Origin: a virus
Direction: 5' to 3' (one strand)
Virus record (IMG/VR): IMGVR_UViG_3300036985_001843
Location: 1-22,259 of that record
DNA: 22,259 bases
Shown: in pieces, positions 2,975 through 18,087 of the stretch
Layout: each line of letters opens with the position of its first letter
Numbering within the stretch: position 1 is the first letter of the stretch
The notes under the pieces: generated by a model
Database searches by the model: none
What the model was told of the DNA's origin: nothing
The model's input: only the letters and a program-made list of their open reading frames with translations
Position numbers and translations under genes: made by a program

Positions 2975-3009
2975 AAACGCCTCTCCTGAAAAGGAGGGGC
3001 GTTTTTGTT
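2975..3009 (+). terminator. Rho-independent terminator after the capsid gene
   Basis: A 13-bp stem (2975-2987 with 2992-3004, one G-U pair) closes a GAAA tetraloop and runs into TTTTTGTTT. It is a textbook intrinsic terminator, placed 37 bases after the capsid stop and just before a promoter-like site. Confidence 0.9.
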
Positions 3010-3014
3010 TGTGG

Positions 3015-3038
3015 ATATGGGTAATTCTATGTAAGAGC
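3015..3038 (+). promoter_or_regulatory. Promoter-like repeat, copy A (phage RNAP type)
   Basis: The sequence TATGGGTAATTCTATGTAAGA (3016-3036) matches the copy at 18064-18084 at 18 of 21 positions; the differences fall in the CTATAGG core. It lies 6 bases beyond the terminator T-tract and upstream of the gene starting at 3120. By alignment, transcription would begin near 3034. This is the weakest of the three copies. A sigma70-type alternative (TTGTTT at 3005, 17-base spacer, TATGTA) also exists here but is not conserved at the other copies. Confidence 0.5.
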
Positions 3039-3107
3039 TATAATCAGCATCGACCCGTAAAGCTCACGGGCGGACGCCATAGAGACGGTGCTGTAATCTT
3101 TCTATGG
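3035..3107 (+). promoter_or_regulatory. Structured 5' leader of the 3120 gene
   Basis: The leader of about 85 bases holds several possible pairings: GAGCT (3035-3039) with AGCTC (3061-3065); CCCGT (3054-3058) with ACGGG (3066-3070), whose loop contains that AGCTC; and CCATAGA (3077-3083) with TCTATGG (3101-3107), which reaches the GG of the presumed ribosome-binding site GGAAAG. This could modulate translation, but short pairings occur by chance. I see no known riboswitch class. Confidence 0.3.
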
Positions 3108-3119
3108 AAAGTAAACAAA

Positions 3120-3566
3120 ATGTCAAGTACTTTTAACACCCCCATCCGCATTTTTAAGCGGAACAACCCCACAAACGACGGCACAATTGCACCAGATAAC
3201 ACTGGCGCTTCCGTCTGCACACAGCAAAAAGCTTTTGTTGGTGGTACAGCCGCCACGTTGACTTTGCCCGCTGGTGCAATCGTTCACGAAATTCAAGCTT
3301 ACGTAGCCACTGCCGCAGGCTCTCCCGCCTCGACAAACGTTACGTTGGACGCCACAGTGATCGCCACATTGTCTGACGCCGCTGGTGTCAACGCTGGCGC
3401 TTTGGCCGCAGGCCAAGCCGCTTTGCTGGCAAACATTGGCACAGTGGACAAAACATTGAGCTACACAGCCGGCGCCAGCGCAATTGGTGTTTTGAGCGTG
3501 ACCTATACACCTCGCAACCCTGACGGTACAATCACCCCTGTGGGTAACGGCTACACCAACAACTAA
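3120..3566 (+). CDS. Small beta-rich virion-type protein
   Basis: Protein of 148 aa, taken from ATG 3120 because GGAAAG lies 8 bases upstream. The frame is open further back to 3009, but that part overlaps the terminator and promoter-like site and looks non-coding. After a short basic N-terminus (IRIFKRNNP, 9-17) the sequence is dominated by Ala, Thr, Val and Gly with alternating strands (TLTLPAGAIVHEIQAYVATA) and ends in a loop-rich tail. This is typical of small phage surface or neck proteins of a jelly-roll or Ig-like type. It is the first gene after the promoter-like site. The function is not identified. Confidence 0.65.
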   Translation: MSSTFNTPIRIFKRNNPTNDGTIAPDNTGASVCTQQKAFVGGTAATLTLPAGAIVHEIQAYVATAAGSPASTNVTLDATVIATLSDAAGVNAGALAAGQAALLANIGTVDKTLSYTAGASAIGVLSVTYTPRNPDGTITPVGNGYTNN

Positions 3567-3574
3567 GGACTGAC

Positions 3575-3853
3575 ATGCGTCAAGTAACAGTTGGAGCGGA
3601 CGTTCTAGTCCCGATCGACCAGTACATTGCACCAGTTAACGTTACTTACGTTGCCACCGGTTCTGGTACTGTTGAGATCTCTTACACTGATCCATTTCCA
3701 TTGAACGCGCAAGGGTACCCTGTACCTACTGCGCCGGTGATGACTTGGATTGCGGCGCCAGCCAGCCCAATCGTGAACCAGCCCTTCCGGGCTATTCGCG
3801 TTACTGGTGGCACCAGCCCCACACTCACAGTTATCCAAGCTGGAATTCGATAA
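3575..3853 (+). CDS. Small beta-sandwich-like structural protein
   Basis: Protein of 92 aa preceded by TAAGGAC that overlaps the upstream stop. The composition is Val, Thr, Pro and Ala with alternating hydrophobic residues throughout, consistent with a small Ig-like or beta-sandwich domain and no membrane segment. It ends by one-base overlap (TAATG) with the next gene, so translation is probably coupled. Probably a virion accessory protein; the family is not recognised. Confidence 0.6.
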   Translation: MRQVTVGADVLVPIDQYIAPVNVTYVATGSGTVEISYTDPFPLNAQGYPVPTAPVMTWIAAPASPIVNQPFRAIRVTGGTSPTLTVIQAGIR

Positions 3854-4248
3854 TGGGTAACGCCTACTACGGCGGTATCTATTGTGACACGCGCGGGCAG
3901 TCTGTACTGTCCGTCGCTGTCTGCGATCGTTGTAATCGCAAAATGTCGTACACGCTTCTCAAACCAGATCCAAACTATCCCGGTCTCATGGTATGCCCTG
4001 ACGACTTGGATCAGTTCGATCCATGGCGCCTTGCCGCCATTCAAACCGAGAACATCACCCTCAGGCACCCGCGGCCTGACGTTTCCGTCGCCATTCAGGG
4101 CAAAGGCGGACTTATTACTAACGCCCCCAACGTGGCTAATATCAACCAAGGCCCCAACATGCTTGGTGATGGATTGGGTAATTCGTTGACCCCGGCAACA
4201 TACGGCAACACGTCTAGCACACCCACACCCGGCGACATTAAGGTATAA
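3853..4248 (+). CDS. Zinc-ribbon-like small phage protein
   Basis: Protein of 131 aa from ATG 3853, which shares its A with the upstream stop; this is preferred over the GTG- or TTG-type extension back to 3745, which would run inside the previous gene. The N-terminal half has cysteines at 11, 24, 27 and 48 in the arrangement VCDRCNRK ... GLMVCPDDLDQFDP. This resembles a common small phage family with CDRCG...GLxVCPxx...DP, thought to form a zinc ribbon. The C-terminal half is a Asn/Gly/Thr-rich tail with little predicted structure. Such proteins often lie among neck and tail genes; their role is unknown. Zinc binding is an inference from the cysteine spacing. Confidence 0.65.
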   Translation: MGNAYYGGIYCDTRGQSVLSVAVCDRCNRKMSYTLLKPDPNYPGLMVCPDDLDQFDPWRLAAIQTENITLRHPRPDVSVAIQGKGGLITNAPNVANINQGPNMLGDGLGNSLTPATYGNTSSTPTPGDIKV

Positions 4249-4250
4249 AA

Positions 4251-4535
4251 ATGGCTGATATAAGCATACTCCAACTACCACCAGCAACGTACCTAAACGT
4301 CAACGACGTCACGGTTATTGTTCAAGACGGGGTTACAAAGAAGGCCGCCATTGCGCTATTCCAAGGCAGTACTACTTACACTGTAGCCACACTGCCTAAC
4401 GCAACCACCTCTGGGCTTGGTGCTAGGGCTTTTGTTACTAACGCACTGTCCCCTACGTTTGGGTCAACTGTTGTTGGAGGGGGTGCTGTTGCTACGCCTG
4501 TGTATTCGGACGGCACAAACTGGAAGGTTGGATAA
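4251..4535 (+). CDS. Small tail or fibre-type structural protein
   Basis: Protein of 94 aa starting two bases after the previous stop and ending by TAATG overlap with the next gene. The N-terminus (ILQLPPATYLNVNDVTVIVQDGVTKKA) is a repeated type of phage structural segment, and the C-terminus ends in VYSDGTNWKVG, a common terminal motif of phage tail or fibre modules. Probably a virion protein. The assignment rests on these motifs and on the neighbours. Confidence 0.6.
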   Translation: MADISILQLPPATYLNVNDVTVIVQDGVTKKAAIALFQGSTTYTVATLPNATTSGLGARAFVTNALSPTFGSTVVGGGAVATPVYSDGTNWKVG

Positions 4536-4768
4536 TGGACTCGCAGGACCTGTTCAACGCGGCAATCACGCTGTCTGGTGCCTTTGGTGGTTGGATTTTG
4601 AAAACGATCTGGGACGCCATAAAAGATCTCAAATCTGAGATAAAAGAATTAAACCGCGAAGTCAACCAAGACTTTGTGCGACGTGAAGACTTTAAAGACG
4701 CTATTGGTGAAATTAAAGACATGTTGAATAAGATCTTTGACAAATTAGACAACAAGGCGGACAAGTGA
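4535..4768 (+). CDS. Small membrane-anchored coiled-coil protein (lysis cassette)
   Basis: Protein of 77 aa. Residues 7-27 form a hydrophobic, Gly-containing segment that could be one membrane helix. Residues 28-74 are strongly charged with heptad-like spacing (DLKSEIKELNREV ... IKDMLNKIFDKLD), so a cytoplasmic or periplasmic coiled coil is likely. The start overlaps the upstream stop by one base (TAATG) and its own stop overlaps the next start (GTGA). Placed at the head of the lysis genes, it may be a holin regulator or accessory protein; no family name can be given with confidence. Confidence 0.6.
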   Translation: MDSQDLFNAAITLSGAFGGWILKTIWDAIKDLKSEIKELNREVNQDFVRREDFKDAIGEIKDMLNKIFDKLDNKADK

Positions 4769-5058
4769 AATGGATAGTTTTAATACTGATCATTGCTTGT
4801 CTATTAGTTGGTGCCGAGGCTAAAGTTGGTTGCCACGTAAGAGAGTTTTACGGAATAGCGTACACCATACACAACCCTTCAGAACGACACCAACAACTGT
4901 CGATGTGGTTGACAAACAATGTGCAGTTTTGCAGAAGCCAAGACTTGGTTGTAATCTGGAACAACTTGTCAGAGTGGGCGGGGTCTGCGGATTCCGCAGA
5001 AGTCAGGGCCAAAGTAATTCACGGGTACAAAGAGGCGCTTGATAGGGAAAAGAAATGA
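4765..5058 (+). CDS. Secreted small protein with signal peptide
   Basis: Protein of 97 aa starting at GTG 4765, in a GTGA overlap with the preceding stop; the ATG at 4770 is in another frame. Residues 1-19 are a clear signal sequence (Lys-2, hydrophobic core VLILIIACLLVG, then AEA), with likely cleavage after Ala-19. The mature part of about 78 residues has two cysteines (C23 and C56) that could form a disulfide, and it ends in a charged helix. There is no lipobox, so it is not an obvious Rz1-type lipoprotein. The position suggests a periplasmic lysis helper or antiholin-like factor, but that is inference only. Confidence 0.65.
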   Translation: MKWIVLILIIACLLVGAEAKVGCHVREFYGIAYTIHNPSERHQQLSMWLTNNVQFCRSQDLVVIWNNLSEWAGSADSAEVRAKVIHGYKEALDREKK

Positions 5059-5294
5059 AGGTCAGCTACGACAAGTGGTACCCCGTCGTTCAACCCATGG
5101 CTTCAACACAGCAAGAGGTGTTTATCAAACGTATAGAAAAGCGAAACGCCGAACACGCCTTGCAGGTGCAGATTGATAACACGGTGAAAAAGTTTCATCA
5201 GTACGAGTATGAGATTTACGAATACAGAATGAAGCAAGTAACGATGAACATTGAGATTAACAACCTTAAACGTGAGATTGACAAACTTGTATGA
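5055..5294 (+). CDS. Coiled-coil protein in lysis cassette
   Basis: Protein of 79 aa coupled to both neighbours by ATGA overlaps (5055-5058 and 5291-5294). From about residue 20 to the end it is almost entirely helical and charged (IEKRNAEHALQVQIDNTVKK, later INNLKREIDKLV), consistent with a coiled coil. No membrane segment or signal peptide is visible. It could partner the membrane proteins on either side, for example as a cytosolic regulator. No family recognised. Confidence 0.55.
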   Translation: MKVSYDKWYPVVQPMASTQQEVFIKRIEKRNAEHALQVQIDNTVKKFHQYEYEIYEYRMKQVTMNIEINNLKREIDKLV

Positions 5295-5563
5295 TAAAGA
5301 AACCGGCACGCAAACCCTCAATAGAGGTGAAGGACAAACTGACATTGTGGGTCACACTCATGGTAAGCGCGACCCTATGTATCTCCGTGTTGGCCATGGT
5401 GGTCAGCTTTATGTTGGGGCTGTGGGCCAAGGAAGTGGACAACGCGGAAATTTTCAAGATGATTTCACCCGCGTTTTCTACTCTTATCGGCGGCATGATT
5501 GGATTCCTGTCTGGTATCAAGTTGATGCAGAACGAAGACAAAAAACACCCTTGTAAGGATTGA
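5291..5563 (+). CDS. Two-helix membrane protein, possible second holin or antiholin
   Basis: Protein of 90 aa with a basic N-terminus (KKPARKPSIEVKDK), a first membrane segment at about residues 19-44, a short charged linker, a second segment at about 58-78 with Gly-rich packing (STLIGGMIGFLSGI), and a charged tail. Size and topology fit a small class II holin-like protein. As another holin-like gene directly follows, the two may act as a holin/antiholin pair. It is translationally coupled by ATGA at its start and by its TGA to the next gene. Confidence 0.6.
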   Translation: MIKKPARKPSIEVKDKLTLWVTLMVSATLCISVLAMVVSFMLGLWAKEVDNAEIFKMISPAFSTLIGGMIGFLSGIKLMQNEDKKHPCKD

Positions 5564-5565
5564 TG

Positions 5566-6060
5566 ATGTTTGATATTTTATCTGGGGGCTTACTAGGCTC
5601 CATCTTCGGCGGTATCTTCCGTATGGCCCCCGAGGTGCTGAAGTTTTTTGACAAGAAGAACGAGCGCCAGCACGAGTTGTTAATGTTCTCCCGCCAGTGT
5701 GATTTAGAGCAACTAAGAGGCGCGCAGAAACTTGCAGAAATTGGAGCGGTTAGAGAAGCCGCGGTGGACGTGGGTGTTATGGACGCATTTAACAGCGCCA
5801 TTCAACAGCAGGCGGACATGGTCAAAGCCGCAGGTGGATGGGCCGCGTCTTTATCCGCGTCTGTCAGGCCCGTCGTAACGTACTGGGTGCTGTTTATTTG
5901 GTCGTTTATTCACGTTTGGTTTGCATGGAATGCGTGGCTTGCCGGCGCCCTTCCTATCGAAGTTTTTAAAACAATGATGACACCAGACTTCTCGGCCTTG
6001 CTGGCCGGAACTATTAACTTCTGGTTCCTCGACCGTACACTGGCCAAGCGTGGGCTATGA
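5566..6060 (+). CDS. Holin-like protein, three-TM/GTA-holin type
   Basis: Protein of 164 aa. ATG 5566 is chosen because AAGGA (5555-5559) is 6 bases away; ATG 5563 and TTG 5560 are in frame but too close to it. An amphipathic N-terminus (LSGGLLGSIFGGIF) is followed by a charged helical domain (about 22-90), the conserved-looking RPVVTYWVLFIW (101-112) leading into a membrane segment to about 127, and a last hydrophobic segment at 141-156. This layout fits holins of the three-TM family first described for gene transfer agents. It would permeabilise the inner membrane to release the endolysin encoded next, which it overlaps by ATGA. Confidence 0.75.
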   Translation: MFDILSGGLLGSIFGGIFRMAPEVLKFFDKKNERQHELLMFSRQCDLEQLRGAQKLAEIGAVREAAVDVGVMDAFNSAIQQQADMVKAAGGWAASLSASVRPVVTYWVLFIWSFIHVWFAWNAWLAGALPIEVFKTMMTPDFSALLAGTINFWFLDRTLAKRGL

Positions 6061-6497
6061 ACCTAGACCTTGCGGCGGCGTTCTGCCGTCAGTTTGAAGG
6101 ATACCGCGCTAAACCCTACCTGTGCCCTGCCAACGTGGCAACCATAGGGTATGGGTCCACCTACTACGCAGACGGGCGCAAGGTGACCCTAGAGGACGCC
6201 CCAATGGACGAGCCAACGGCTAGGGCGCTCTTGATGACTGAGTTGCACCACAACTACCTACCCGGCGTGTTGCGTAACTGCCCCATTTTGGCGGCGGATG
6301 AGCGCAGGTGTAACGCCATCGTGGACTTCTGTTACAACCTTGGGATCGGCCGTTTACAGACTTCCACCCTCAAGCGCAAGATCAACGCGCAGGATTGGGA
6401 GGGGGCCAAAGAGCAGTTAATGCTCTGGACCAAAGGAGGCGGTAAAGTTTTGCCCGGTTTGGTTAAAAGACGAACGGCCGAATGCGCTTTACTTTAA
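6057..6497 (+). CDS. Endolysin, GH24 lysozyme
   Basis: Protein of 146 aa with the phage-type lysozyme signature: E14 in QFEGYRAKPY, C23 nine residues later and T29 in ATIGYGS, the same E-x8-(D/C)-x5-T spacing as T4 and lambdoid P21 lysozymes. A central helix ADERRCNAIVDFCYNLGIG and the C-terminal LPGLVKRRTAECALL also match the family. It hydrolyses the beta-1,4 bond between MurNAc and GlcNAc of peptidoglycan. There is no signal peptide or SAR segment, so export should need the upstream holin. The start overlaps the holin stop (ATGA) and a terminator overlaps its own stop codon. Confidence 0.93.
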   Translation: MNLDLAAAFCRQFEGYRAKPYLCPANVATIGYGSTYYADGRKVTLEDAPMDEPTARALLMTELHHNYLPGVLRNCPILAADERRCNAIVDFCYNLGIGRLQTSTLKRKINAQDWEGAKEQLMLWTKGGGKVLPGLVKRRTAECALL

Positions 6498-6517
6498 GGG
6501 CATAACGGCCCTTTTTT
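6496..6517 (+). terminator. Rho-independent terminator after endolysin
   Basis: AAGGGC (6496-6501) pairs with GCCCTT (6508-6513) around a 6-base loop and is followed by TTTTTT (6512-6517). The stem begins inside the endolysin stop codon, and its T-run abuts promoter-like copy B, so termination and re-initiation are packed into about 40 bases. Confidence 0.8.
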
Positions 6518-6540
6518 ATGGGTAATTATCTATAGGAGAA
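6516..6540 (+). promoter_or_regulatory. Promoter-like repeat, copy B (phage RNAP type)
   Basis: TATGGGTAATTATCTATAGGA (6517-6537) differs from the copy at 18064 at one position of 21; weaker similarity continues to about 6548. The CTATAGGAGA end resembles the -5 to +6 region of T7-type promoters, which would put transcription start near G6535. The same AGGAG could serve as ribosome-binding site for the ATG at 6548, 9 bases on, giving a very short leader. Confidence 0.6.
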
Positions 6541-6547
6541 CCTAACC

Positions 6548-6853
6548 ATGGCAACAAAATACACACCCCGCATCGACCACTCTAAAAAAGACTACGAGTC
6601 TGAGGCCGCCGACATGGCCCAAGACAAGAAGGTCGTTAAAAAAGCGTTCAAGATGCACGACGAGCAAGCCCACGGTGGCGAGAAGACAGACATGTCCAAG
6701 CTCAAAAAAGGTGGCCGCGCTAAGATGACCACGGGTTCCGTGCGTAATTTCAAGGCCGGTGGTTTGACTGGTGTGAAGAGCATCGACAAACAACCCAACG
6801 CTAAAGCCCCTAAGAAGGTTGCTGAGAAGTACAACAAGGGCGGAATGTGCTAA
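6548..6853 (+). CDS. Basic Lys/Gly-rich small protein
   Basis: Protein of 101 aa with AGGAGA 8-9 bases before the ATG. It is strongly basic, with KKGG-type motifs (SKLKKGGRAKMTTGS, NFKAGGLTG, EKYNKGGMC) and an acidic helical patch near residues 10-25. No membrane or enzyme signature is visible. I recall similar short Lys/Gly proteins in uncultured aquatic phages, usually unnamed. A nucleic-acid-binding or internal virion role is plausible from the charge but unproven. It is the first gene after promoter-like copy B. Confidence 0.6.
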   Translation: MATKYTPRIDHSKKDYESEAADMAQDKKVVKKAFKMHDEQAHGGEKTDMSKLKKGGRAKMTTGSVRNFKAGGLTGVKSIDKQPNAKAPKKVAEKYNKGGMC

Positions 6854-6856
6854 ACA

Positions 6857-7897: not shown

Positions 7898-7909
7898 GAA
7901 GAAATAACT

Positions 7910-9481
7910 ATGGCACAAGCGGGATACACACCAATTCAACTGTACTTCAGTTCCACCGCGGCGGCGGTGCCCACCACAGGTAATTTGATTACCGGTGAGT
8001 TGGCGCTCAACGCCAACGACGGCAAACTGTATTATAAAAACTCTGCTACTAACACAGTTAGACTTTTGGCTGACGGGGCGACGGCTACGGGTAATTTGCC
8101 CGGTGGTGCAACGGGCTCTGTTGTCTACCAAAGTGCAGTCGGTGTAACAGCCTATTTGCCAATTGGTGGTGCTGGTTCATTGTTGTACTCAACTGGTACG
8201 CTACCTGCGTATGCGTCAATAGGAGCGGCTGGCTCGATTGTTTATTCAAACGGTACATCACCAACTTCAATTGCAATTGGCTCTACTAATTCTTTGTTGT
8301 ACTCCAACGGAACAACTCCAGCGTATGCGTCTATTGGTGCGGCAGGTTCAATTGTTTACTCGACTGGTACAGCACCTACATCACTTGCAATTGGGGCTGT
8401 AGATACTGTTCTAACATCAACAGGATCAGCACCTCAGTTTGTAAGCCAAGCTAGTTTGTCAGTGGGTACAGCCGCCGTAGCAGGTTTTGCAACTACTGCT
8501 GGCGCGGCAACAACAGCGACTACAGCGACTACAGCGACTAACCTTGCTGGTGGTGCGGCAAACAGGGTTGCCTTTCAATCAAGCACAAGCAACACCACGT
8601 TTGTAGCCGCTCCAACAATTGCTGGTACGGTGCTTGGGTGGACTGGATCTTTATTAGATTGGGTAGCCGCCCCAGCCGCCACAACGACAACAAACATTGC
8701 TGGTGGTGCTCAGTATCAGATTCCATTCCAAAGTGGTGTTAGTACAACAGCGTTCAGTTCAAATCTGACGTTCAATTCAAGCACTAATACGGTTGGAACA
8801 ACAAACATTACAGCAACTGGCGCAGTCTCTGGAAACAGTGTTGCATCAACAACAACAGTAGCGGCAACAACAGGTGTTTCTGCAGGCACAACAGTAGCGG
8901 CAGGAACAGCAGTCACTGCGGGAACTTCTGTCACAGCAACAACGTCAGTGACTGGTGCTACTGTTATTGCCAATAAAGCGATTGCCCCAACAGCAACAAC
9001 TGGTGCGCACAGCTACGGAACACTCTCGTACACCGACACAAACATTTTTGAGTCAAGTCAGACGTCTGTTAACAGCTACGCGCAGAAGATTTTACAGAAT
9101 ACCAACAACGGTAGTACTGCGTCGGTAGACTACATTGTTTCAAATGACCTAGGCACTGGAACCACGTACTACGGTGACTTTGGTATGAACAGTTCCACGT
9201 ACAGTGGAGTTGGCCCTTTTCAATTGGCAAACGCGGTGTACTTGTACTCAACGGATTCGGACATTGTTATTGGCACAAAGACAGCGCACAGTTTGCGTCT
9301 TGTCACCAACGACAACTCAGCGGACTCGATGACAATCAGTTCTAACGGCTCGGTAGCCTTTAACGGCAACTTTGGTGTTGCTGGCAAGGTTCTCGGTTCA
9401 AACGGCACGGCAGGGCCACCAACGTGGGTAGACGCTGGTGGCGCACCTTCATTCTTACTTATCAACGCAGGAGTCAGTTAA
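7910..9481 (+). CDS. Tail fibre protein with tandem repeats
   Basis: Protein of 523 aa preceded by AAGAAG. The N-terminus (TGNLITGELALNANDGKLYYKNSA) is a common phage fibre attachment-type motif. Residues about 85-180 hold five copies of a 19-residue repeat (types GSLLYSTGTLPAYASIGAA and GSIVYSNGTSPTSIAIG, alternating). Residues about 205-280 contain TAT runs and NLAGGAANR/NIAGGAQYQ units. Residues 315-356 are six-residue repeats (TTVAAT, TGVSAG, TTVAAG, TAVTAG and so on) that fit a trimeric beta-helical shaft. The C-terminal 150 residues are a more complex beta domain ending in a GKVLGSNGTAGPPTWVDAGG motif. It is likely a trimeric fibre contributing to host contact. Confidence 0.75.
   Translation: MAQAGYTPIQLYFSSTAAAVPTTGNLITGELALNANDGKLYYKNSATNTVRLLADGATATGNLPGGATGSVVYQSAVGVTAYLPIGGAGSLLYSTGTLPAYASIGAAGSIVYSNGTSPTSIAIGSTNSLLYSNGTTPAYASIGAAGSIVYSTGTAPTSLAIGAVDTVLTSTGSAPQFVSQASLSVGTAAVAGFATTAGAATTATTATTATNLAGGAANRVAFQSSTSNTTFVAAPTIAGTVLGWTGSLLDWVAAPAATTTTNIAGGAQYQIPFQSGVSTTAFSSNLTFNSSTNTVGTTNITATGAVSGNSVASTTTVAATTGVSAGTTVAAGTAVTAGTSVTATTSVTGATVIANKAIAPTATTGAHSYGTLSYTDTNIFESSQTSVNSYAQKILQNTNNGSTASVDYIVSNDLGTGTTYYGDFGMNSSTYSGVGPFQLANAVYLYSTDSDIVIGTKTAHSLRLVTNDNSADSMTISSNGSVAFNGNFGVAGKVLGSNGTAGPPTWVDAGGAPSFLLINAGVS
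8164..8450 (+). repeat. 57-bp tandem repeats in tail fibre gene
   Basis: Five imperfect units of about 57 bases encode 19-residue repeats. Units 1 and 3, and units 2 and 4, are most alike, so the array behaves as a duplicated 114-bp block plus one diverged unit. Unit-number change by recombination would lengthen or shorten the fibre in frame. Confidence 0.7.
8513..8539 (+). repeat. Triple 9-bp direct repeat
   Basis: ACAGCGACT occurs three times in perfect tandem (8513-8521, 8522-8530, 8531-8539), encoding a Thr/Ala run in the fibre shaft. Confidence 0.85.
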
Positions 9482-9919
9482 ATGGCAACGAACGCACAAT
9501 ATACAAAAAACGCACGGCAGTCGTCTGTCGTAATTAGTACGGCAAATACAAACCGTGACGGTACAGGAACAATGACCATTCTGTGGACTGCACCTGCTTT
9601 TGTAGACGCCACAAACCCCGGTGGTTCACGCATTGAACGAATTGTCATTCAAGCTACTGGTACCACCACAGCGGGTATGGTGCGTTTGTTTGTAAGTTCT
9701 GACGCACTGAGTAACACTGCTTCTAACACGTTCTTGTACGAAGAGGTACCTGTAACAGCGGCTACACCTTCTACTACAGTGCAGGCTTATTCAGTGGCGC
9801 TTCAAGCTGTGACGTACCAGACACTGTTCCCAATCATGATTGGCCCCGGATGCACTCTGCGTGTGTCCACGGCTAACGCTGAATCTTTTATTGTGACTGC
9901 AATGGGCGGAGACTACTAA
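9482..9919 (+). CDS. Small beta-rich tail or virion protein
   Basis: Protein of 145 aa starting directly after the fibre stop, with AGGAG (9469-9473) 8 bases before the ATG. The sequence alternates short strands (TGTMTILWTAPAF, SRIERIVIQATGTTTAGMVRLFVSS, TLFPIMIGPGCTLRVSTANAESFIVTAMG) and has no long helix, consistent with a single jelly-roll or beta-sandwich domain. It lies between two host-recognition genes and is probably a tail-tip component or fibre partner. No named family. Confidence 0.6.
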   Translation: MATNAQYTKNARQSSVVISTANTNRDGTGTMTILWTAPAFVDATNPGGSRIERIVIQATGTTTAGMVRLFVSSDALSNTASNTFLYEEVPVTAATPSTTVQAYSVALQAVTYQTLFPIMIGPGCTLRVSTANAESFIVTAMGGDY

Positions 9920-9920
9920 A

Positions 9921-12782
9921 ATGGCAAATGGATCTTTTGGACTTAGCGGTTTACCTACCGCACCCACCACTGTTGGCGGCGGTAGCAGTATTGTTAACCC
10001 CTTCACACAAACAGAGGTAACGCTCGCTTCTGTGAACGGTTTTAGCTCTGGCGACTTGGTGTACCAATACAACGGTGACTATCAAGTAATTAGCTCAACT
10101 GCGGCTTCTTCATCGACATTCCCTGTTACCACGCAAACAGTTACAAACATTGGTAGCGGACTGGGAGGTTTTCAGCAAATTCAGTCAAACCGATTTAACA
10201 ATACTACAAAAACTGTAGCTACATTATCAAACGGAAATATTGTTTGGGTTTTTAATAAATATACTGCGTCGGGAATATTCCCATACTTCAAAATTACAGA
10301 TGAAAACAACACGGAAGTTGTTGCGGAAACGGTTATTGAATCCGTTGCAATGCCGAACCAGTCAATTGGCCCAACGGTTTCCGCCTTGTCTGGCGGTGGT
10401 TTTGTTGTTGCATGGGTTAACTCATCAGGTTATATTAGGTACGCTGTTTATTCAAATACAGGAACAGTTACAACAGCGTTGCAAAACGACACTGGCGTAA
10501 CCGCATATTCTGGTAATTATCAATTTGCAGTTGCGTCAAGACCAGTATCTGGCGGTTTTGTTTTTACACTAATGGAAAATTCCTCGTTGATTGTTAAACA
10601 CCGCGTTTACGGTGCAACAGGTACTGCAACATACGCATGGACGTCAAACAACACTTTGCCAAGCGTATATGGATGGCCCCGTGTTGCGGTTCGTAGTGAC
10701 GATAGTTTTGTCGTTATTTCAATGAACGCTTCTGCAAGCACATACATTTACTATTTGTGGGATTCAACAAACAACGCGGTAACAAACGGTAGCTTCTCAG
10801 CATCTCCATCGTCTGCGTTTGGGCAAGATGTATGCGCGTTATCAAATGACGTTTTCATTCTTGTTGCTGGAACTAATACTGGACTTTTTTACAGAACACT
10901 AACTGGCTCAACATTGTCTGGTTCTAGCGTTCGGATAAGTCCCGGCACAAGCTCGTCTTCAAGTGAATACGTTGCTGTTAGACCTCTTACAAACGGTGGT
11001 TGGGCGGTTGTTTATACGACTGCTACTATTGATGATAGTCAACAGTTTTACCAAGGGCTTGTTTACGTAAACGTCTACAACTCGGCTAATACTTTGTTGA
11101 GTGTTACTTATAAAGGATCAACCACTTCATACACGGGTTTCCCGTATAACTTCATTCCCGGTTCTCTTAGCTCAAATACGTATTTTGGCTTAACGGAAAC
11201 AACAAACTATATTCATGTTGTAACTAATGGGTATAACGCTAGTTCCAAAACACAGCAATGGGCTAGGTTTAATAAAACCACGTACTCGCCCGTACCTTTT
11301 ACATCTACAACAGTATCTGCTGTCAATACACCTGCTTTAGCAACAGGGGCGTATGCGCCCGCTGGTTCTACGCCCACTGCGGCGGCTTTTTATGCCGCAA
11401 GTACAAGCACTGCTGGTTGGGAAACACCAAGTTTAACAGAATCAATCATACTTGCCGCTTCTACTACCATTGATACTGCGATAAGCACTATTACCTACAC
11501 TGACTCGGCATCACTATCAACTGGTGGGGCGGTTATAGCTTATTCTGGATATGCACCCGGATCTGTGGGGTATACTAGATTTGCTGTTTATAACGGGGTA
11601 GGCAATCAAATACTTCCAGTTACAGCACTAAATTCCGATGCTGGAGCAGTAAAAGTTATAGGCTTAACTAGCAATAAATTTGCAATGTGGTCAAATAATG
11701 TTTTGTATGTATACAGCAACACTGGCGCGCAATTAACAAGTTTGACTACAAATTTTACCGTTGACGGTTCTCACTCTATAAGTTTAGCGCCATTGCCTAA
11801 CGGAAGATTTGTTGTGTTCGCAAATGCTAGTTCGAGTGAATCATACTATCTTAAATTTACCGTGTATAACGATAGTTTGAACGTTTTATATGGCCCATAC
11901 ACCGTTGATGCTTATAATACATTGCCGTGTCAAGTAGCCACACTTGGTGATAACATTTACGTGATTTACCGACCAAGCGGGCAATCTGGAAATGTTAACC
12001 AAATGACTGAGTTTTTACCAACTGGCACAAATACATGGTCACTTTACGCTAACAATAGTATTACTAGTGGTTATCCAATAAATTCTAGGGCTTTTGGTTT
12101 AAATTCTGGGACATTTATTCGTATATATACGAACAACTCTGGCTCCGGTACTATTCAACAAATGAATTCTACTGGGTCAGCTTTTGCAACTAATAGTTTT
12201 TCGGTTTACAACAACGGCACTAATGTAGATCAAAGCCCACTTCAAATTGCCCCAACTTGCAATGGAAATTACTTTTATCTCGCAACTCCAAATTCAGGCT
12301 CAAATTCATATTTAAATTTTTACTATGGTTTTACCGGAGTTGCTGGGAATAGCGCTAGCGGTATTATTACATCAAATTATCAAACTGCAGGGGCTAAACC
12401 AACAGTAGCAGGATTATCAGGGGAAAAAATGCTAATCGGGTATGTGCCTTACGTCACATCCACTGGTAGAGAATATATGACTGTTGCTATTGTTGATGCT
12501 GGCAGATACCAAGGAACGCAATCTATTGTTGCTGGATCATCTATATCAAATGCTTCTACTGTTTTAAGCCCTTCAACAGGGTTTAGATTGGTTGGCGTAG
12601 CGACATCTACAGCACCCGCTGGTGGCACGGGAACGGTTGTTATTAACGGCAATGCAACACTTAGCAGTAGCTATTCATCCGTAGCATCACCCGGACAAGC
12701 GTTTGACTTCTCTGGCCCCGTGGCGTTTGGTGCGGCTGGAACTGTTATTGGTCGCAATGTAAATCTTCAAGGAAACGTGTAA
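9921..12782 (+). CDS. Large beta-propeller-like receptor-binding candidate
   Basis: Protein of 953 aa preceded by GGCGGAG. Two long regions (roughly residues 60-460 and 540-870) consist of repeated units with a strand like GGFVVAWVNSSGYIRYAVY, then a Ser/Thr/Asn loop with TG; other examples are GGWAVVYTTAT, NGRFVVFANASSSESYYLKF and GGAVIAYSGYAPG. This blade-like spacing suggests two beta-propellers joined by an Ala/Thr-rich linker (about 465-530). The C-terminal 65 residues (VGVATSTAPAGGTGTVVING ... FDFSGPVAFGAAGTVIGR) look like a separate fibre-type cap domain. I read it as a tail adhesin or spike. The gene is visibly AT-rich: bases 12061-12120 are 32 percent GC against 57 percent for 15001-15060. 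No enzymatic motif was found. Confidence 0.65.
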   Translation: MANGSFGLSGLPTAPTTVGGGSSIVNPFTQTEVTLASVNGFSSGDLVYQYNGDYQVISSTAASSSTFPVTTQTVTNIGSGLGGFQQIQSNRFNNTTKTVATLSNGNIVWVFNKYTASGIFPYFKITDENNTEVVAETVIESVAMPNQSIGPTVSALSGGGFVVAWVNSSGYIRYAVYSNTGTVTTALQNDTGVTAYSGNYQFAVASRPVSGGFVFTLMENSSLIVKHRVYGATGTATYAWTSNNTLPSVYGWPRVAVRSDDSFVVISMNASASTYIYYLWDSTNNAVTNGSFSASPSSAFGQDVCALSNDVFILVAGTNTGLFYRTLTGSTLSGSSVRISPGTSSSSSEYVAVRPLTNGGWAVVYTTATIDDSQQFYQGLVYVNVYNSANTLLSVTYKGSTTSYTGFPYNFIPGSLSSNTYFGLTETTNYIHVVTNGYNASSKTQQWARFNKTTYSPVPFTSTTVSAVNTPALATGAYAPAGSTPTAAAFYAASTSTAGWETPSLTESIILAASTTIDTAISTITYTDSASLSTGGAVIAYSGYAPGSVGYTRFAVYNGVGNQILPVTALNSDAGAVKVIGLTSNKFAMWSNNVLYVYSNTGAQLTSLTTNFTVDGSHSISLAPLPNGRFVVFANASSSESYYLKFTVYNDSLNVLYGPYTVDAYNTLPCQVATLGDNIYVIYRPSGQSGNVNQMTEFLPTGTNTWSLYANNSITSGYPINSRAFGLNSGTFIRIYTNNSGSGTIQQMNSTGSAFATNSFSVYNNGTNVDQSPLQIAPTCNGNYFYLATPNSGSNSYLNFYYGFTGVAGNSASGIITSNYQTAGAKPTVAGLSGEKMLIGYVPYVTSTGREYMTVAIVDAGRYQGTQSIVAGSSISNASTVLSPSTGFRLVGVATSTAPAGGTGTVVINGNATLSSSYSSVASPGQAFDFSGPVAFGAAGTVIGRNVNLQGNV

Positions 12783-13597
12783 TGCCTTACATTTCATCAA
12801 CCTCTCAAGTCAACAACCCTGTAAGTGGGGTGTTTGGTACTGGTCAAGTTCGGGTCTTTTCATCCTCTGGTATTTGGGCTGTACCCTCTGGCATTAGCAG
12901 GGTTCGTGTTCGTATGTGGGGCGGAGGCGGTGGTCAGAATACTAGCGGTACTTATTCAGGTTCAGGAAGTGGTTTTGCTTTAAAAGCAATTAACGACTTA
13001 TCTGGTGTTACTAGCATTTCAGTATCAGTGGGAGCCGCAGGCACAAGTGGTAACCCCGGAAACGTTGGTGGTACATCGTCGTTTGGTTCTTACGTTTCTG
13101 CTACTGGCGGTCAAACTGGCCCAGCTTCCACAGCAACAGCGGGAACAGGGGTTGGTGGTGACATTAACACTTCTGGTGGAGTAGGGGTATCAGGAGGTAC
13201 TTCTGGTGGTGGTGGGGCTGGTAATTTATTTGGAAATGGCGGAGACGGCACCAGTAATATTAACGGCAACAACGGCGCTTCTGGTGGTGGTGGCGGTCAA
13301 TCTCAATCAACTAGCGTAAGCTCTGGTGGAAATGGTATTCTTGGTATTGGCGCTAGCCCCTCTGTATACAGCACCTACGGAAACATTTCTCCCCAAATGC
13401 CAACAACAGGACAAGAAGGTGGGTTTTCTATAGACTTTATTGGTACTGGGGGTGGTGGTGGTGCCGCGTCCTCAACTTTAAAAATTAACGGAATTAACGG
13501 CGGTGGTGGTGGCTTTGGCGCTAACGGTGGTTTCCCCGGCGGTGGCGGTGGTTATGGTGGTAGTGCCGCTAATGGCATGGTTATTGTGGAGTGGTAA
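12782..13597 (+). CDS. Glycine-rich tail adhesin
   Basis: Protein of 271 aa whose ATG overlaps the previous stop (TAATG), with AAGGAAA upstream. Residues 24-90 form a beta domain typical of glycine-rich phage tail proteins: FSSSGIWAVPSGISRVRVRMWGGGGG, followed by VTSISVSVGAAGTSG. From residue 109 on there are repeated Gly clusters (SGGGGAG, ASGGGGG, GTGGGGG, INGGGGGFG, FPGGGGGYGG) separated by short variable loops, the pattern expected of polyglycine-II sandwich adhesins such as T-even-like gp38. It ends in MVIVEW. It may form the tip that contacts the receptor, with specificity in the loops. Confidence 0.75.
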   Translation: MPYISSTSQVNNPVSGVFGTGQVRVFSSSGIWAVPSGISRVRVRMWGGGGGQNTSGTYSGSGSGFALKAINDLSGVTSISVSVGAAGTSGNPGNVGGTSSFGSYVSATGGQTGPASTATAGTGVGGDINTSGGVGVSGGTSGGGGAGNLFGNGGDGTSNINGNNGASGGGGGQSQSTSVSSGGNGILGIGASPSVYSTYGNISPQMPTTGQEGGFSIDFIGTGGGGGAASSTLKINGINGGGGGFGANGGFPGGGGGYGGSAANGMVIVEW

Positions 13598-13599
13598 AA

Positions 13600-13785
13600 A
13601 TGAAATTTGCACGAATTACAGACAGTATTGTTGTTGAGTTTTTAGTAGCCCCTAGTGGGTTTTCTTTGAACCAATGTTTCCACCCAGACATTTTGGCGCA
13701 TTGCGTTGAAGTGCCTGATAGCGCCCAAATTGGCGATACATACACACCCCCTGTGGTTGAAGAGACACCCCCTGTAACCGAATAA
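13600..13785 (+). CDS. Small tail-accessory protein
   Basis: Protein of 61 aa from ATG 13600, with GGAG 8 bases upstream; a GTG at 13591 is also in frame but would overlap the adhesin stop. The motif CFHPDILAHCVEVPDSAQIGDTY matches a small domain (FHPDF...CVEVPD...G) found near phage tail-fibre and tail-assembly genes. The C-terminus is Pro/Glu/Thr rich. Possibly a fibre assembly helper or a minor tail protein. Confidence 0.65.
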   Translation: MKFARITDSIVVEFLVAPSGFSLNQCFHPDILAHCVEVPDSAQIGDTYTPPVVEETPPVTE

Positions 13786-13793
13786 GGTAGAAA

Positions 13794-14411
13794 ATGGCCG
13801 CAGAAGCAATGACCTATGACAGCCTCGTTGAGGATGTCATTACTTACTCTGAGCGTGACGACACTTCGTTTGTTGCGCAAATTCCTCGGTTGATCATGTT
13901 GACCGAGCAGAGCATTGCCGCCCAGATCAAAACACTCATGCAGTTAAACGTGGTCAACACCACACTGACTGTCAACGACCCTGTGATTCAAAAGCCGGCA
14001 CGTTGGCGTAAAACGACAAGCATGAAGATCAACGGCCAGCCTGTGCTCAACAGGTCGATGGACTACGTGTCCCAGTTTCAGACAGAGTCCAGTAACGGAC
14101 AACCCTTGTACTACGGAGATTACGACTATGATCACTGGGCTCTTGCTCCAATTCCAAACAGCGCTTACTCGTTGCAAATTATTTATTACAGCCGCATACA
14201 GCCGCTTGATGTCACGAATCAAGAAAACCTCTTAACACGCGAGGCCCCTCAGGCTTTGCTGTACGGCACCTTGCTTCAGGCACAGGGCTTTATTAAGAAC
14301 GCGGACAAGCTTGCAATGTGGAAACAGTACTACGACGAGGCCATTAACGCACTCAAAGGCGAAGATCAGAAACGCATGATCGACCGCAACGCAACAAGAC
14401 AGGAACCTTAA
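13794..14411 (+). CDS. Head-tail adaptor, SU10-type
   Basis: Protein of 205 aa preceded by TAAGGT. N-terminal helices (MTYDSLVEDVITYSERDD, FVAQIPRLIMLTEQSIAAQI) lead into a central beta part (RWRKTTSMKINGQPVL; PLYYGDYDYDHWALAPIPN; YSLQIIYYSRIQPLD) and a C-terminal helical region (EAPQALLYGTLLQAQGFIKN, KLAMWKQYYDEAINAL). Order and motifs match podovirus adaptor or tail-tubular-A-like proteins such as the SU10 adaptor, which forms a ring between portal and nozzle. Length is typical. It stops one base before the next ATG. Confidence 0.78.
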   Translation: MAAEAMTYDSLVEDVITYSERDDTSFVAQIPRLIMLTEQSIAAQIKTLMQLNVVNTTLTVNDPVIQKPARWRKTTSMKINGQPVLNRSMDYVSQFQTESSNGQPLYYGDYDYDHWALAPIPNSAYSLQIIYYSRIQPLDVTNQENLLTREAPQALLYGTLLQAQGFIKNADKLAMWKQYYDEAINALKGEDQKRMIDRNATRQEP

Positions 14412-15686
14412 ATGCCAACATATACCTCCCCGTTTACTGGGAACGTAATCCAACCCACGGACGTAAGTTACGTATCTCTTGCGCTATCGGGCACGGTACA
14501 ACTGTACTGGCCCCAGTACGTCAGCACGGCGGGTCAGCAGGTTGCGGCCCGTATCATGGACGTTGTGTCCACTGCCGGCGGCATTATTAAGTTGCCAGAC
14601 GCACAGCAAGCCTCTGTTGGCCAAGACATTCTGTTCCGCAACCAAGGCGCTAACGCGTTCACTGTGTCTCGCTCAGACGGCACTGGCTCGTTCACCGTGC
14701 CCGTGGGTCAGGCCTACTACACGTACCTGACTAACAACACCACCGCGGTGGGTGTATGGCAGACCGTAGCGTTCGGTGTTGGTACGTCCTTTGCAGACGC
14801 CGCCACACTGGCAGGCAACAGCACAGCGGCCATTCTAGGCAAGCTAGAGAGCACAATCATTACCAACGAGTATTCCTCGTCTATCACGATCAATGACGCG
14901 TCTCGCGCGCAATGTTTTGTGTGGACCGGTGGTGCGGGCTCGACCACGTTGCCCGCTGTGGCTTCGTTGTCTTCTGGTTGGTACATTCTGGTGCGTAACA
15001 ACGGCACAGGCACGCTGACAATCAACACGGCGTCTGCTGGTTCAACCATTGATGGACTGGCTAGCTTGGCCCTCCCCCTTGGTGACTCATGCTTTATCTG
15101 CGTGAACCAAGACCCAATTAAGCAAGACTTTTTTACAGTTGGACGTTCACGCCCTAACAGCCTGACGTTCTCTTCTGCCACGTACGACGTGGACGTGGTG
15201 GCCGGCGGCACACTGAGCCTGATCACCAACACACCAATTATTCAGCGCTACACCGCGCTAAGTGGCACCCGCACAACAACCTTGGCGGTTCAGTTGCCTG
15301 CCGTGACTCAGGTGTACTACCTGCTGAACGACACCAACCAGAGTGGCTACAACGTCACGTTCCAAGTGCAGGGTAGCGCACAACCCCCCTACTCTTTGCC
15401 AACGTCTACACAGGTTATTGTGCTGAGTGACGGCACCAACCTGTACCCTTTGATTCAGACCAACGTTGGTCAATACTTGGCCAACAGGGGCACCGCGGCC
15501 TCTCCTGCGTTCACGTACACACTGGACCCTGTGACGGGTATGTACTCACCCAACAACGGCCAACTGGGCTTCTCTGTTGCGGGCACCAACATTGCCACCA
15601 TGGACGCAACTGCCGGCGTGGGCAACTACGTGACCCGTTTTGTGGGGCGCGTGCAGGCTGACCTGATTTCTGGTGGGGCGTTTTAA
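14412..15686 (+). CDS. Tail-associated protein with triplicated beta domain
   Basis: Protein of 424 aa. Three similar domains can be seen: about residues 57-120 (IIKLPDAQQASVGQDILFRN ... VGVWQTVAFG), 167-245 (TLPAVASLSSGWYILVRNNG ... ICVNQDP) and 285-349 (TTTLAVQLPAVTQVYYLLND ... VIVLSDGTNLYPLI). Each has an LPA start, a strand with RN or ND, a Thr/Gly loop and a final strand. This module is common in phage tail-tip and fibre proteins. The last 75 residues (AASPAFTYTLDPVTGMYSPN ... FVGRVQADLI) resemble a fibre C-terminal segment. The stop overlaps the next start (TAATG), which ties it to the nozzle gene. Exact location in the virion is unknown. Confidence 0.6.
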   Translation: MPTYTSPFTGNVIQPTDVSYVSLALSGTVQLYWPQYVSTAGQQVAARIMDVVSTAGGIIKLPDAQQASVGQDILFRNQGANAFTVSRSDGTGSFTVPVGQAYYTYLTNNTTAVGVWQTVAFGVGTSFADAATLAGNSTAAILGKLESTIITNEYSSSITINDASRAQCFVWTGGAGSTTLPAVASLSSGWYILVRNNGTGTLTINTASAGSTIDGLASLALPLGDSCFICVNQDPIKQDFFTVGRSRPNSLTFSSATYDVDVVAGGTLSLITNTPIIQRYTALSGTRTTTLAVQLPAVTQVYYLLNDTNQSGYNVTFQVQGSAQPPYSLPTSTQVIVLSDGTNLYPLIQTNVGQYLANRGTAASPAFTYTLDPVTGMYSPNNGQLGFSVAGTNIATMDATAGVGNYVTRFVGRVQADLISGGAF

Positions 15687-17812
15687 TGGCCGGCGAACCG
15701 TCCAAAATCTTCACCCTCTTTGTAAAGCCCGGTATCAAGCGGGACGGTACACGCTTTGAGGCTGACGAATATAACGACGGTAAGTGGGTAAGGTTTCAGC
15801 GTGGTAAAGCAAAGAAGATTGGCGGCTACCGCCAAATGTTTGCCTCCCCCACCGGCATCCCACGTGGGATGATCACCAACTCACTGAACGGCGTTAACTA
15901 CATCTACGCGGGCAACTACAAGGGTGTTGAGGTGTTCAACACAGGCACCGACCAAGGTGTGGGTGTGGGCCCGTTCCCTATCGAGTTTAGTAAGACCTAC
16001 GTGGTTGTTCAGGTTAACACATCACCAAGAACAATTCACGTTAAGGGCAACCACGTTGCGGCTTTTCCAAACCCCTCAACGTTTTGGGCATACAACACGT
16101 CTGGTGTTCGTACCAACTTCACAACCGACACAACACCGACGTACAACACCCCCGGCAACTACACCGAGTTACACTTGGTTTCAATCACAGGCATGCAGAC
16201 CACGGTGCCGTTTGAGATTTATGTGCCTAATGGTTTTGCCGCAAGCAACCAACATTTGTGGCAGTTTGACATTGCGTACGACTCCACTGGCACAGGCAAC
16301 TCCAAGCTGTTGGCCCACCCCGGCCACAACCTAGACAACATTGACGCTGGTGTTAACACGTCGCTTTTTGCAGGTAACTTCTTGCCCGACCCAACAACAG
16401 GCAAGTACATCCTGACCGAGGTGGTTGACTCCACTGGCACAACACCAACGTACCTGCCAATTGACGTGAGCGGCGGTGTTGTGGTGCTACACCCGTTTGT
16501 GTTTGTGTACGGCAACTACGGCCTCCTGCGCAACAACAACGTCATCTTTAACTCACCCACGGCCAACGTGCAAACGTTCAGCGACTGGAACGGCACGCTT
16601 GCCAACGAGGTAAACGTGACGGCCGGCAAGATCGTGCGCGGCTTTCCTATTCGCGGTGGTACCTCTTCACCCTCTGGCCTCTTCTGGGCCACAGACTCTT
16701 TGGTGCGTGTGTCCTTTACAGGCACCACGCCCTACTACTGGCGCTACGACACGGTGTCTAACCAGACGTCTATCATGTCGTCTAGCTCAGTGGTTGAGAT
16801 GGACGGCACGTTCTTTTGGATGGGTGTTGACCGCTTCTACCTTTACAACGGCGGCGTTAAGGTCTTGCCCAACGACAAGAACGTCAACTACCTGTTTGAC
16901 AACATTAACTTTGGCGCCCGTCAAAAGGTGTGGGCCACCAAGGTCCCCCGCTACAACGAGATCTGGTTCTTCTACCCGCGCGGTACGGCAACAGAGTGCA
17001 CAGACTGTATTATCTTTAACGTCAAGGATAACGTCTGGTACGACGCCGGCGAGGCTGAAGGCGCGCGCAGGTCCTGTGGTTACGTGACCGAGGTGTTCCC
17101 TCGCCCTGTCTGGGCAGGATGGGACTTTAACGGCCAACTGGGCCAAACGTACACGCTAACCTATGGTCCAAACCGTGCCACGTCACCAGTCACAACAGCC
17201 TATCAGGTGATCGCCCCCGGGGACCTAACAACCAACCCCGCCGGTAGTTTCATGGTGTTTAACACTCAAATTGCAGAGAACTTTGCCTCTGTTAACCAAA
17301 TCACCGCGGCGGTGTTTACAAACAACTCCTCTGGTGGGTACACCACGCTGACCTTTGTGGACATTGTGCCTGTCTCGGTGGTTGCGGGCAGTACCATGAC
17401 ACAGGCCACGGGTGGCTACTCGATATGGGAGCAGGAGTTTGGAAAGAACAAGATCACGGCAACCGAAGAGTATGCTGTTGACTCTTTTGTAGAGACCTGC
17501 GACATCAGTTGGGTGGGAGGCACGCCCGCCTCAGACGAGCCCATGGGCGTCAACAGGCGCATGCACCTGACCCGTATTGAGCCTGACTTTAAGCAGGTCG
17601 GTGACATGGAGCTTACCGTTGTTGGTAGGCCTTTTGCAAACGACGGTGTAGAAGAGAAGGGACCCTTCACCTACACGCCCACGTCCGGCAAAATTGACCT
17701 TCGCGTTGAAGCGCGTCTTGTCAGTTTGCGCTGGCGCAGTAACGTTATTGACGGAGATTATGAGGCCGGTAGAACGCTAATTACCGCCGAGTTTGGCGAC
17801 GAACGGCCTTAA
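15686..17812 (+). CDS. Tail nozzle/P22 gp10-like protein
   Basis: Protein of 708 aa with GGTGGGG upstream. The N-terminus carries FVKPGIKRDGTRFEADEY and VRFQRGKAKKIGGYRQM, a signature I associate with P22 gp10-like stabilisation and podovirus nozzle proteins. The central part (about 260-480) has RGFPIRGGTSSPSGLFWATD, SSSVVEMDGTFFWMGVDRFY, LYNGGVKVLP and KVPRYNEIWFFYPRG, consistent with a beta-propeller nozzle domain. The C-terminal 150 residues form further beta strands. It would continue the tail tube below the adaptor and hold packaged DNA. Adjacent adaptor supports this. Family is fairly sure, the exact homologue is not. Confidence 0.72.
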   Translation: MAGEPSKIFTLFVKPGIKRDGTRFEADEYNDGKWVRFQRGKAKKIGGYRQMFASPTGIPRGMITNSLNGVNYIYAGNYKGVEVFNTGTDQGVGVGPFPIEFSKTYVVVQVNTSPRTIHVKGNHVAAFPNPSTFWAYNTSGVRTNFTTDTTPTYNTPGNYTELHLVSITGMQTTVPFEIYVPNGFAASNQHLWQFDIAYDSTGTGNSKLLAHPGHNLDNIDAGVNTSLFAGNFLPDPTTGKYILTEVVDSTGTTPTYLPIDVSGGVVVLHPFVFVYGNYGLLRNNNVIFNSPTANVQTFSDWNGTLANEVNVTAGKIVRGFPIRGGTSSPSGLFWATDSLVRVSFTGTTPYYWRYDTVSNQTSIMSSSSVVEMDGTFFWMGVDRFYLYNGGVKVLPNDKNVNYLFDNINFGARQKVWATKVPRYNEIWFFYPRGTATECTDCIIFNVKDNVWYDAGEAEGARRSCGYVTEVFPRPVWAGWDFNGQLGQTYTLTYGPNRATSPVTTAYQVIAPGDLTTNPAGSFMVFNTQIAENFASVNQITAAVFTNNSSGGYTTLTFVDIVPVSVVAGSTMTQATGGYSIWEQEFGKNKITATEEYAVDSFVETCDISWVGGTPASDEPMGVNRRMHLTRIEPDFKQVGDMELTVVGRPFANDGVEEKGPFTYTPTSGKIDLRVEARLVSLRWRSNVIDGDYEAGRTLITAEFGDERP

Positions 17813-18052
17813 ATGTTAATCGAATTCTTGCCCGAATATAGCACTTGGGAAGACTGGAACGGGAACTTGCTACACTATTTTGGTGAACAGCAGTTCCCGT
17901 TTTTGCCTGAAGACCAGTGGCGTGAGGTGGCCTACGCGGTTAACTTCAACCCCGTGTTTGATAAGTACGCCATCCCCAACCCTGAAACGTTTGAAACGTG
18001 GCAAGAATGGGCCAACCTGTTGATCACCGCAGTCAACGGCAACGGGGCATAA
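17813..18052 (+). CDS. Small acidic Trp-rich protein
   Basis: Protein of 79 aa starting immediately after the nozzle stop codon with only a weak ribosome-binding site, so coupled translation is likely. It is acidic and rich in Trp, Phe, Tyr and Pro (STWEDWNGNLLHYF, LPEDQWREVAY, FETWQEWANLLITAV), with two short helices. No signal or membrane segment. Probably a tail accessory or chaperone-like protein; not recognised. Confidence 0.6.
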   Translation: MLIEFLPEYSTWEDWNGNLLHYFGEQQFPFLPEDQWREVAYAVNFNPVFDKYAIPNPETFETWQEWANLLITAVNGNGA

Positions 18053-18062
18053 ACACCTCAAA

Positions 18063-18087
18063 TTATGGGTAATTCTCTATAGGAATA
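18063..18087 (+). promoter_or_regulatory. Promoter-like repeat, copy C (phage RNAP type)
   Basis: TATGGGTAATTCTCTATAGGA (18064-18084) is nearly identical to copy B, and similarity extends to about 18095 (28 of 32 positions). Here the AGGA lies about 25 bases before the next ATG, too far for a ribosome-binding site, which argues that the conserved element is a promoter rather than a translation signal. Predicted start near G18082. Confidence 0.62.

Follow-up and report, generated by a model that had tools for sequence, protein, structure and literature searches.

Three repeated promoters in a virus genome fragment and a probable split sigma factor that reads them

Which RNA polymerase reads a promoter that occurs three times in a fragment of a virus genome? 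The fragment is the IMG/VR record IMGVR_UViG_3300036985_001843, whose 22,259 bases (the window) hold genes for a capsid protein, a lysozyme, an SU10-type adaptor (Pfam SU10_adaptor) and other virion proteins. Its source is probably a freshwater tailed phage, with the three copies, here called A, B and C, as its middle or late promoters. A preliminary description of the window saw in them a phage-specific family resembling the promoters of T7 and SP6, and predicted that the phage encodes a single-subunit RNA polymerase of its own. The promoter reading is right and the polymerase reading is wrong. We believe these promoters are likely to be read by the host RNA polymerase carrying a split sigma factor made by the phage, and to drive the genes for replication and for the virion.

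A promoter in two parts

The pattern TATGGGTAATTNNCTATAGGA matches the window at three places, all on the + strand: 3016 (3 mismatches), 6517 (0) and 18064 (0). It has 0 matches in 100 dinucleotide shuffles of the window, so the three-copy family that had been proposed stands, as do the identities quoted against the copy at 18064 (18/21 for A, 20/21 for B). The string CTATAGGA, offered as the shared sequence, is not literally present in copy A, which has CTATGTAAGA and differs from the 21-base pattern in three places. What had been overlooked is the upstream half of the element. Each copy has a GGGC separated from its TATGGG by exactly 15 nucleotides (nt). The GGGC of A and B sits within a hairpin resembling an intrinsic terminator, and it had been said correctly that these two copies lie at such hairpins. 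Copy C has no terminator, and its upstream half overlaps the final codons of the preceding gene. The parts are as follows.

2975-3004, + strand: intrinsic terminator of the capsid operon, overlapping the promoter A -35
2997-3000, + strand: GGGC, -35-like element of promoter A, lying in the 3' arm of the terminator hairpin that follows the major capsid gene
3016-3036, + strand: promoter A core TATGGGTAATTCTATGTAAGA, an extended -10 (TG, then the hexamer GTAATT) and start region, with the predicted +1 near A3033
6496-6513, + strand: intrinsic terminator after the lysozyme gene, overlapping the promoter B -35
6498-6501, + strand: GGGC, -35-like element of promoter B
6517-6537, + strand: promoter B core TATGGGTAATTATCTATAGGA, with the predicted +1 near A6534 and the ATG 14 nt further on, at 6548
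18045-18048, + strand: GGGC, -35-like element of promoter C, inside the end of the preceding gene (17813-18052)
18064-18084, + strand: promoter C core TATGGGTAATTCTCTATAGGA, with the predicted +1 near A18081 and the ATG 29 nt further on, at 18110

The same motif is widespread among the relatives of this phage. Searching with the capsid protein brought up 80 related viral loci. Across 136 loci (1.7 megabases) the motif has 47, 55 and 43 sites at 0, 1 and 2 mismatches, while the reversed pattern has none. Close relatives carry it at equivalent places: after the capsid gene (the position of promoter A, common to L005-L013), after the lysozyme gene and downstream of the large terminase gene. They also carry it before tail or internal protein genes, and in longer records it stands on the opposite strand, before replication genes.

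The full promoter of this first clade is GGGC-N15-TATGGGTNATT-N3-TATAGGA. The upstream element was absent from the search pattern, and yet a GG lies ahead of the motif, by exactly 19 and 18 bases, in 46/46 non-redundant sites, which are homologous between phages and hence not independent, though their contexts inside one genome are unrelated. GGKC occurs at this fixed spacing in 43 of the 46, against a background of about 0.6-1.3% of positions. A second, more distant clade has GGGC-N15-TTTGCATTAGT-N3-TATAGGA, with GGGC in 58/61 sites. The block next to +1 is common to both clades and the block upstream of it differs. If the A of TATAG is taken as +1, the TG falls at -15/-14, GGGC at -36 to -33, and the -10 hexamer would be GTNATT in clade 1 and ATTAGT in clade 2. 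On this inferred numbering TG and GGGC would occupy the canonical sigma70 layout. A -35 and a -10 at near-constant spacing face the genes, as in promoters of the sigma70 type, and the combination of a -35 with an extended -10 argues for a sigma-type promoter rather than a T7-type one. Taking TATAGGA itself as the sigma -10 box was rejected because its gap to GGGC would reach about 27 nt.

It had been suggested that the hits be placed over whole genomes, and this was done with the relatives. Of the 19 sites examined, which come from the window and from G001, G004 and G005, every one precedes the start of an open reading frame (ORF) on its own strand, by 4-88 nt. A phage-specific promoter family running with its genes and close to their start codons was the correct description, and the guessed start region, TATAGGA, fits the place where conserved RNA leaders begin. 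The copies might instead be other RNA or DNA elements, such as translation enhancers or antitermination or processing sites. Some sites do bring AGGAG near an ATG (6534-6548), and a structured RNA follows promoter A. We find this most improbable: a -35-like element precedes the start block at a fixed distance and falls inside terminators, and the start codons are anywhere from 4 to 88 nt away. That range of distances was also the reason for rejecting the motif as a mere ribosome-binding leader. Early promoters are another matter: counts of sigma70-like promoters in the early regions were not clearly above those in shuffles, and no early promoters were identified there.

The search for a phage RNA polymerase

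Are these T7/SP6-type promoters, read by a single-subunit phage RNA polymerase of new specificity? The case for it is that TATAGGA resembles the start of T7-class promoters, and that the clades share the block next to +1 while the upstream block differs. We regard it as very unlikely, and as largely refuted. A profile search with PF00940 gave no match at E<=10 in 11 relatives, although T7 as a positive control scored 9.9e-110. The relatives included G004, which is a complete genome of 68,390 bases with a 127-base terminal repeat; the negative is one about the relatives, the genome of the window itself being incomplete. Nor do the ORF lists of the non-structural regions of G001 and G004 hold a polymerase-sized unassigned gene. 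They do hold a replication module, in which an exonuclease and a single-stranded DNA-binding protein are confirmed by family search, and a DNA polymerase, a reductase, a primase-helicase and an SNF2-like helicase appear to be present from a reading of the sequences.

The layout of the promoter points the same way. The footprint of T7-class promoters is -17..+6, a contiguous stretch of about 23 bp with no -35. Here an invariant GG stands at -36/-35 in all 46 sites, outside such a promoter, and the relatives encode instead a sigma70-family protein and a separate one that resembles sigma region 4.

Two phage proteins as a candidate split sigma

G001, G004 and other long relatives encode a sigma70-family protein of about 175 amino acids (aa) that ends after region 3. 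Pfam finds Sigma70_r2 in it at 1.3e-11 (44.6 bits, cut-off 24) and Sigma70_r3 at 1.4e-10 (41.6 bits, cut-off 25.3), and against the bacterial sigmas of the PDB it aligns to regions 1.2-3.1 at 1e-14. G001 is very close to the window, with a capsid protein 99% identical and an identical 40-mer at promoter A. The polypeptide contains no region 4; its matches to PF04545 are sub-threshold and lie inside region 3. That a region 4 is hidden in the ORF or has been frameshifted away was rejected on the ground that the ORF stops at the same point, just after region 3.1, in 11/11 aligned relatives. An 86-aa ORF that overlaps the end of the sigma ORF in G001 has no region 4 either.

Where, then, is the part that would read the -35? 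Searches for region 4 gave sub-threshold matches at a conserved, unannotated ORF of about 97 aa, which in several genomes closes the early cluster on its 3' side. The family has 23 members, with an invariant acidic RLSDE-x2-DP motif, reminiscent in sequence of sigma region 3.2, followed by a helical C-terminal half. AlphaFold2 models residues 41-90, in that half, with a predicted local distance difference test (pLDDT) score of about 90. When this model is compared with the PDB by Foldseek, the matches are mostly sigma region 4 or whole sigmas (3hug, 3vep, 3vfz, 2o8x, 2h27), at probabilities of 0.69-0.98 and a root-mean-square deviation of about 2 A; SigL region 4 has a probability of 0.98 at 2.3 A, and SigD4, SigD, SigC and the region 4 of a sigmaE-DNA structure are also matched. 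The best E is 0.27 and none is <0.001, as expected for a three-helix domain of 60 residues. The commonest weak profile match is Pfam Sigma70_r4_2, sub-threshold in 13/23 members (best 0.0034). An hhalign comparison of the family with the single sigmas RpoD and RpoS of E. coli was not significant, single-sequence targets having little power. The top profile match, to a 'circular tendon repeat protein', was rejected as an artefact of eight summed repeats in which no single stretch is significant. No significant relatives were found in 50,697 phage records, and bacterial genomes gave one relative of 41% identity, on a betaproteobacterial metagenome-assembled contig (L321) with no promoter match. 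To us this small protein looks like the missing, -35-binding part of the sigma, regions 3.2 and 4; the case is strong, yet no single test of it is significant.

The phage sigma (regions 1.2-3) might read the extended -10 by itself, with GGGC bound by a phage activator or a host factor, or with the small protein serving as a co-activator like T4 gp33 that does not read DNA. T4 provides the precedent in gp55 and gp33, where gp33 holds the beta flap and is structurally unrelated to sigma region 4 (PMC7892883), and in no sequence search does the homology of the small protein to region 4 rise above threshold. We judge this unlikely, as the predicted fold of the small protein is that of sigma region 4, the domain that reads the -35. 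Comparison of the two clades also speaks against it. The recognition-helix or helix-turn-helix stretch of the partner (VTEKYWRYHF) is nearly constant across the clades, like GGGC, whereas region 2.4 of the sigma diverges where the -10 diverges.

The promoter and the two genes occur together. The composite promoter (<=1 mismatch) is found in 20/24 related records against 0 for the reversed control, the partner in 15 and the sigma in 11 of the same 24. Among the 7 uncultivated records of at least 50 kilobases, the partner is in all 7, the promoter in 6 and the sigma in 4. Both proteins and the promoter are absent from three complete phages whose capsids are related: Caulobacter phage RW, MW202545 and Pelagibacter phage HTVC023P. 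This bears on the idea that a sigma factor of the host reads the promoters and the phage proteins play no part. Alternative host sigmas can use unusual elements. We nevertheless hold this idea to be highly improbable: the elements are unlike those of sigma70 (TTGACA/TATAAT), the -10 block varies between phage clades, and the presence of the promoter tracks the phage genes.

Several points weigh against a split sigma. The sigma genes lie outside the 22-kilobase fragment and are known from its relatives. The sigma half was found in only four of the seven long records, although G005 and others look like genome fragments. G014 has the partner without the promoter at <=1 mismatch. The identification of region 4 comes from a predicted fold and from weak profile matches, none of them significant by itself.

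The mechanism we propose would run as follows. Early in infection, under the control of host sigma70 by our assumption, the phage would make the sigma70-family protein (about regions 1.2 to 3.1) and the separate small protein (about regions 3.2 and 4), and the two together may act as a split sigma on the host core RNA polymerase. The sigma piece would melt and read the -10 block (TATG-G-GTNATT...TATAGGA) while the small partner would hold the beta flap and read GGGC at about -36 to -33. At A and B the -35 lies within the terminator of the preceding operon, making the end of one operon the start of the next. The gene order of G001 fits the needs of an early-to-late cascade: both sigma genes come before the first promoter of this family in the direction of transcription.

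Leader RNAs, neighbouring genes and known systems

The leader and the first genes behind the three promoters are these.

3033-3119, + strand: conserved double-pseudoknot 5' leader RNA, starting where transcription from promoter A is predicted to begin
3120-3566, + strand: gene behind promoter A, whose 148-aa product matches no family
6548-6853, + strand: gene behind promoter B, for a lysine-rich protein of 101 aa that is kept in about 120 related contigs
18110-19093, + strand: gene behind promoter C, whose product of 327 aa contains a GDSL/SGNH hydrolase domain (Pfam PF13472, 2.8e-11)

The transcript from promoter A would open with this leader, which runs up to the ATG at 3120. It can form two interleaved pseudoknots with the helices GAGCT/AGCTC, CAGCATCG/CGGTGCTG, CCCGT/ACGGG and CCATAGA/TCTATGG. 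All four form in 21/28 homologues (spanning L004-L083), with compensatory changes such that CAGCATCG/CGGTGCTG is elsewhere GCTGTGC/GCACAGC or ATCTCA/TGAGAT. No shuffle reached the score of any of the 21, in a search limited to the double-pseudoknot topology and with shuffles that kept base composition only. The 5' strand of the first helix starts at the second or third transcribed base, and this is independent, if indirect, support for the predicted start site. An Rfam search of the leader gave no match; a match to isrG in the window is due to chance (20 bits against a cut-off of 100). The leader perhaps protects the 5' end or controls translation of the next gene, whose 148-aa product is probably a virion accessory protein to judge from the position of the gene.

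Other promoters of the family also seem to have leaders that are conserved, look structured and begin at the first base. These are of different types: one at L017:11037 and L137:12214 (AAGAGGGAAAAGG...), another at L308:5619, L316:9716, L317:1957 and L232:2966 (ACTCGTCGGGAGACGC...). Pelagibacter phage HTVC023P (L119) has a similar-looking pseudoknotted leader after its capsid gene, at about 20990-21070, without the promoter or the sigma pair, so the RNA may predate the promoter. Between the capsid terminator and the promoter and leader, several relatives (L024, L027, L028, L029, L030, L033 and others) have an ORF (NAKRLKKEWYERNKELTKERAR...) whose ATG closely follows a TATAAT-like box; at a guess the ORF is homing-endonuclease-like. 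In G001 (30588-31460) and G004 (19360-20241) the ORF preceding the large terminase gene shows by eye a Hint/intein-like sequence (MGIDARTPIPTTAGWQLARFIKPGDEVFD...) and has a weak PHROGs match to the terminase large subunit, which suggests that a domain of this kind interrupts the terminase or is fused to it. At 7910-13597 of the window, repetitive ORFs rich in Gly, Thr and Ser (523, 145, 953 and 271 aa) stand in a row and probably encode tail fibre or surface proteins.

How does this compare with sigma factors already known to come in pieces? The late promoters of T4 consist of a lone TATAAATA and are not known to have a -35; the T4 late system also includes tails that bind the sliding clamp. 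In T4 late transcription two small phage proteins, gp55 and gp33 (with the gp45 clamp), likewise replace sigma70 on the host RNA polymerase, and gp55 carries homology to sigma region 2 like the first piece here; the pair has been termed a split sigma (PMC2988020). Unlike in T4, region 3 is part of the first piece here, the second piece resembles region 4, and the promoter has a conserved -35 and a different -10. The two-subunit sigma SigO-RsoA of Bacillus subtilis divides into sigma2 and sigma3 (22.5 kDa) and sigma4 (9.0 kDa) (PMC10141391). Sigma2/3 and sigma4 there are on separate proteins of similar sizes to ours, a likeness of domain layout to which the caveat about region 4 applies, but it is a bacterial acid-stress system. 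Earlier papers on it reportedly assign the domains the other way round, and its promoters are not known to be related to the phage promoters here.

Among phages, phiEco32 and SU10 (gp36/gp32) are also podophages with a related adaptor protein and a phage sigma that drives middle and late genes. They differ in using a single ECF-type (extracytoplasmic function) sigma, whose promoter motif, tAATGTATAtA, lies 6-8 nt from the start site (PMC4281155). That motif is not matched by the consensus here and has no GGGC. The gp33 and gp34 of SPO1, a Gram-positive myovirus, are jointly needed for late promoters whose -35 and -10 differ from those described here. SPO1 gp34 appears in one list of sigmas as indispensable (PMC9429907). 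A phage pair like the present one was not described in the literature searched, whose coverage is incomplete.

On balance we favour the view that a truly bipartite phage sigma, regions 1.2-3.1 with an independent 3.2-4 that reads the -35, drives the replication and virion operons of this freshwater phage group, whose transcripts would open with pseudoknotted leaders of their own. Split sigmas are rare; the gp33 half of T4 imitates region 4 in function only, and SigO-RsoA is an oddity among bacteria. If our view is true, this is a phage pair with both halves recognisable as sigma domains, in which the function of region 3.2 when detached can be studied. The roughly 100 natural promoters in two clades, with a constant -35 and a changed -10, form a system for the separate evolution of -35 and -10 recognition. 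This work corrects a plausible but wrong annotation of T7-like promoters. Its promoter model and two gene families can be used to annotate many uncultivated freshwater phages, and the leader draws attention to a structured RNA that had not been recognised.

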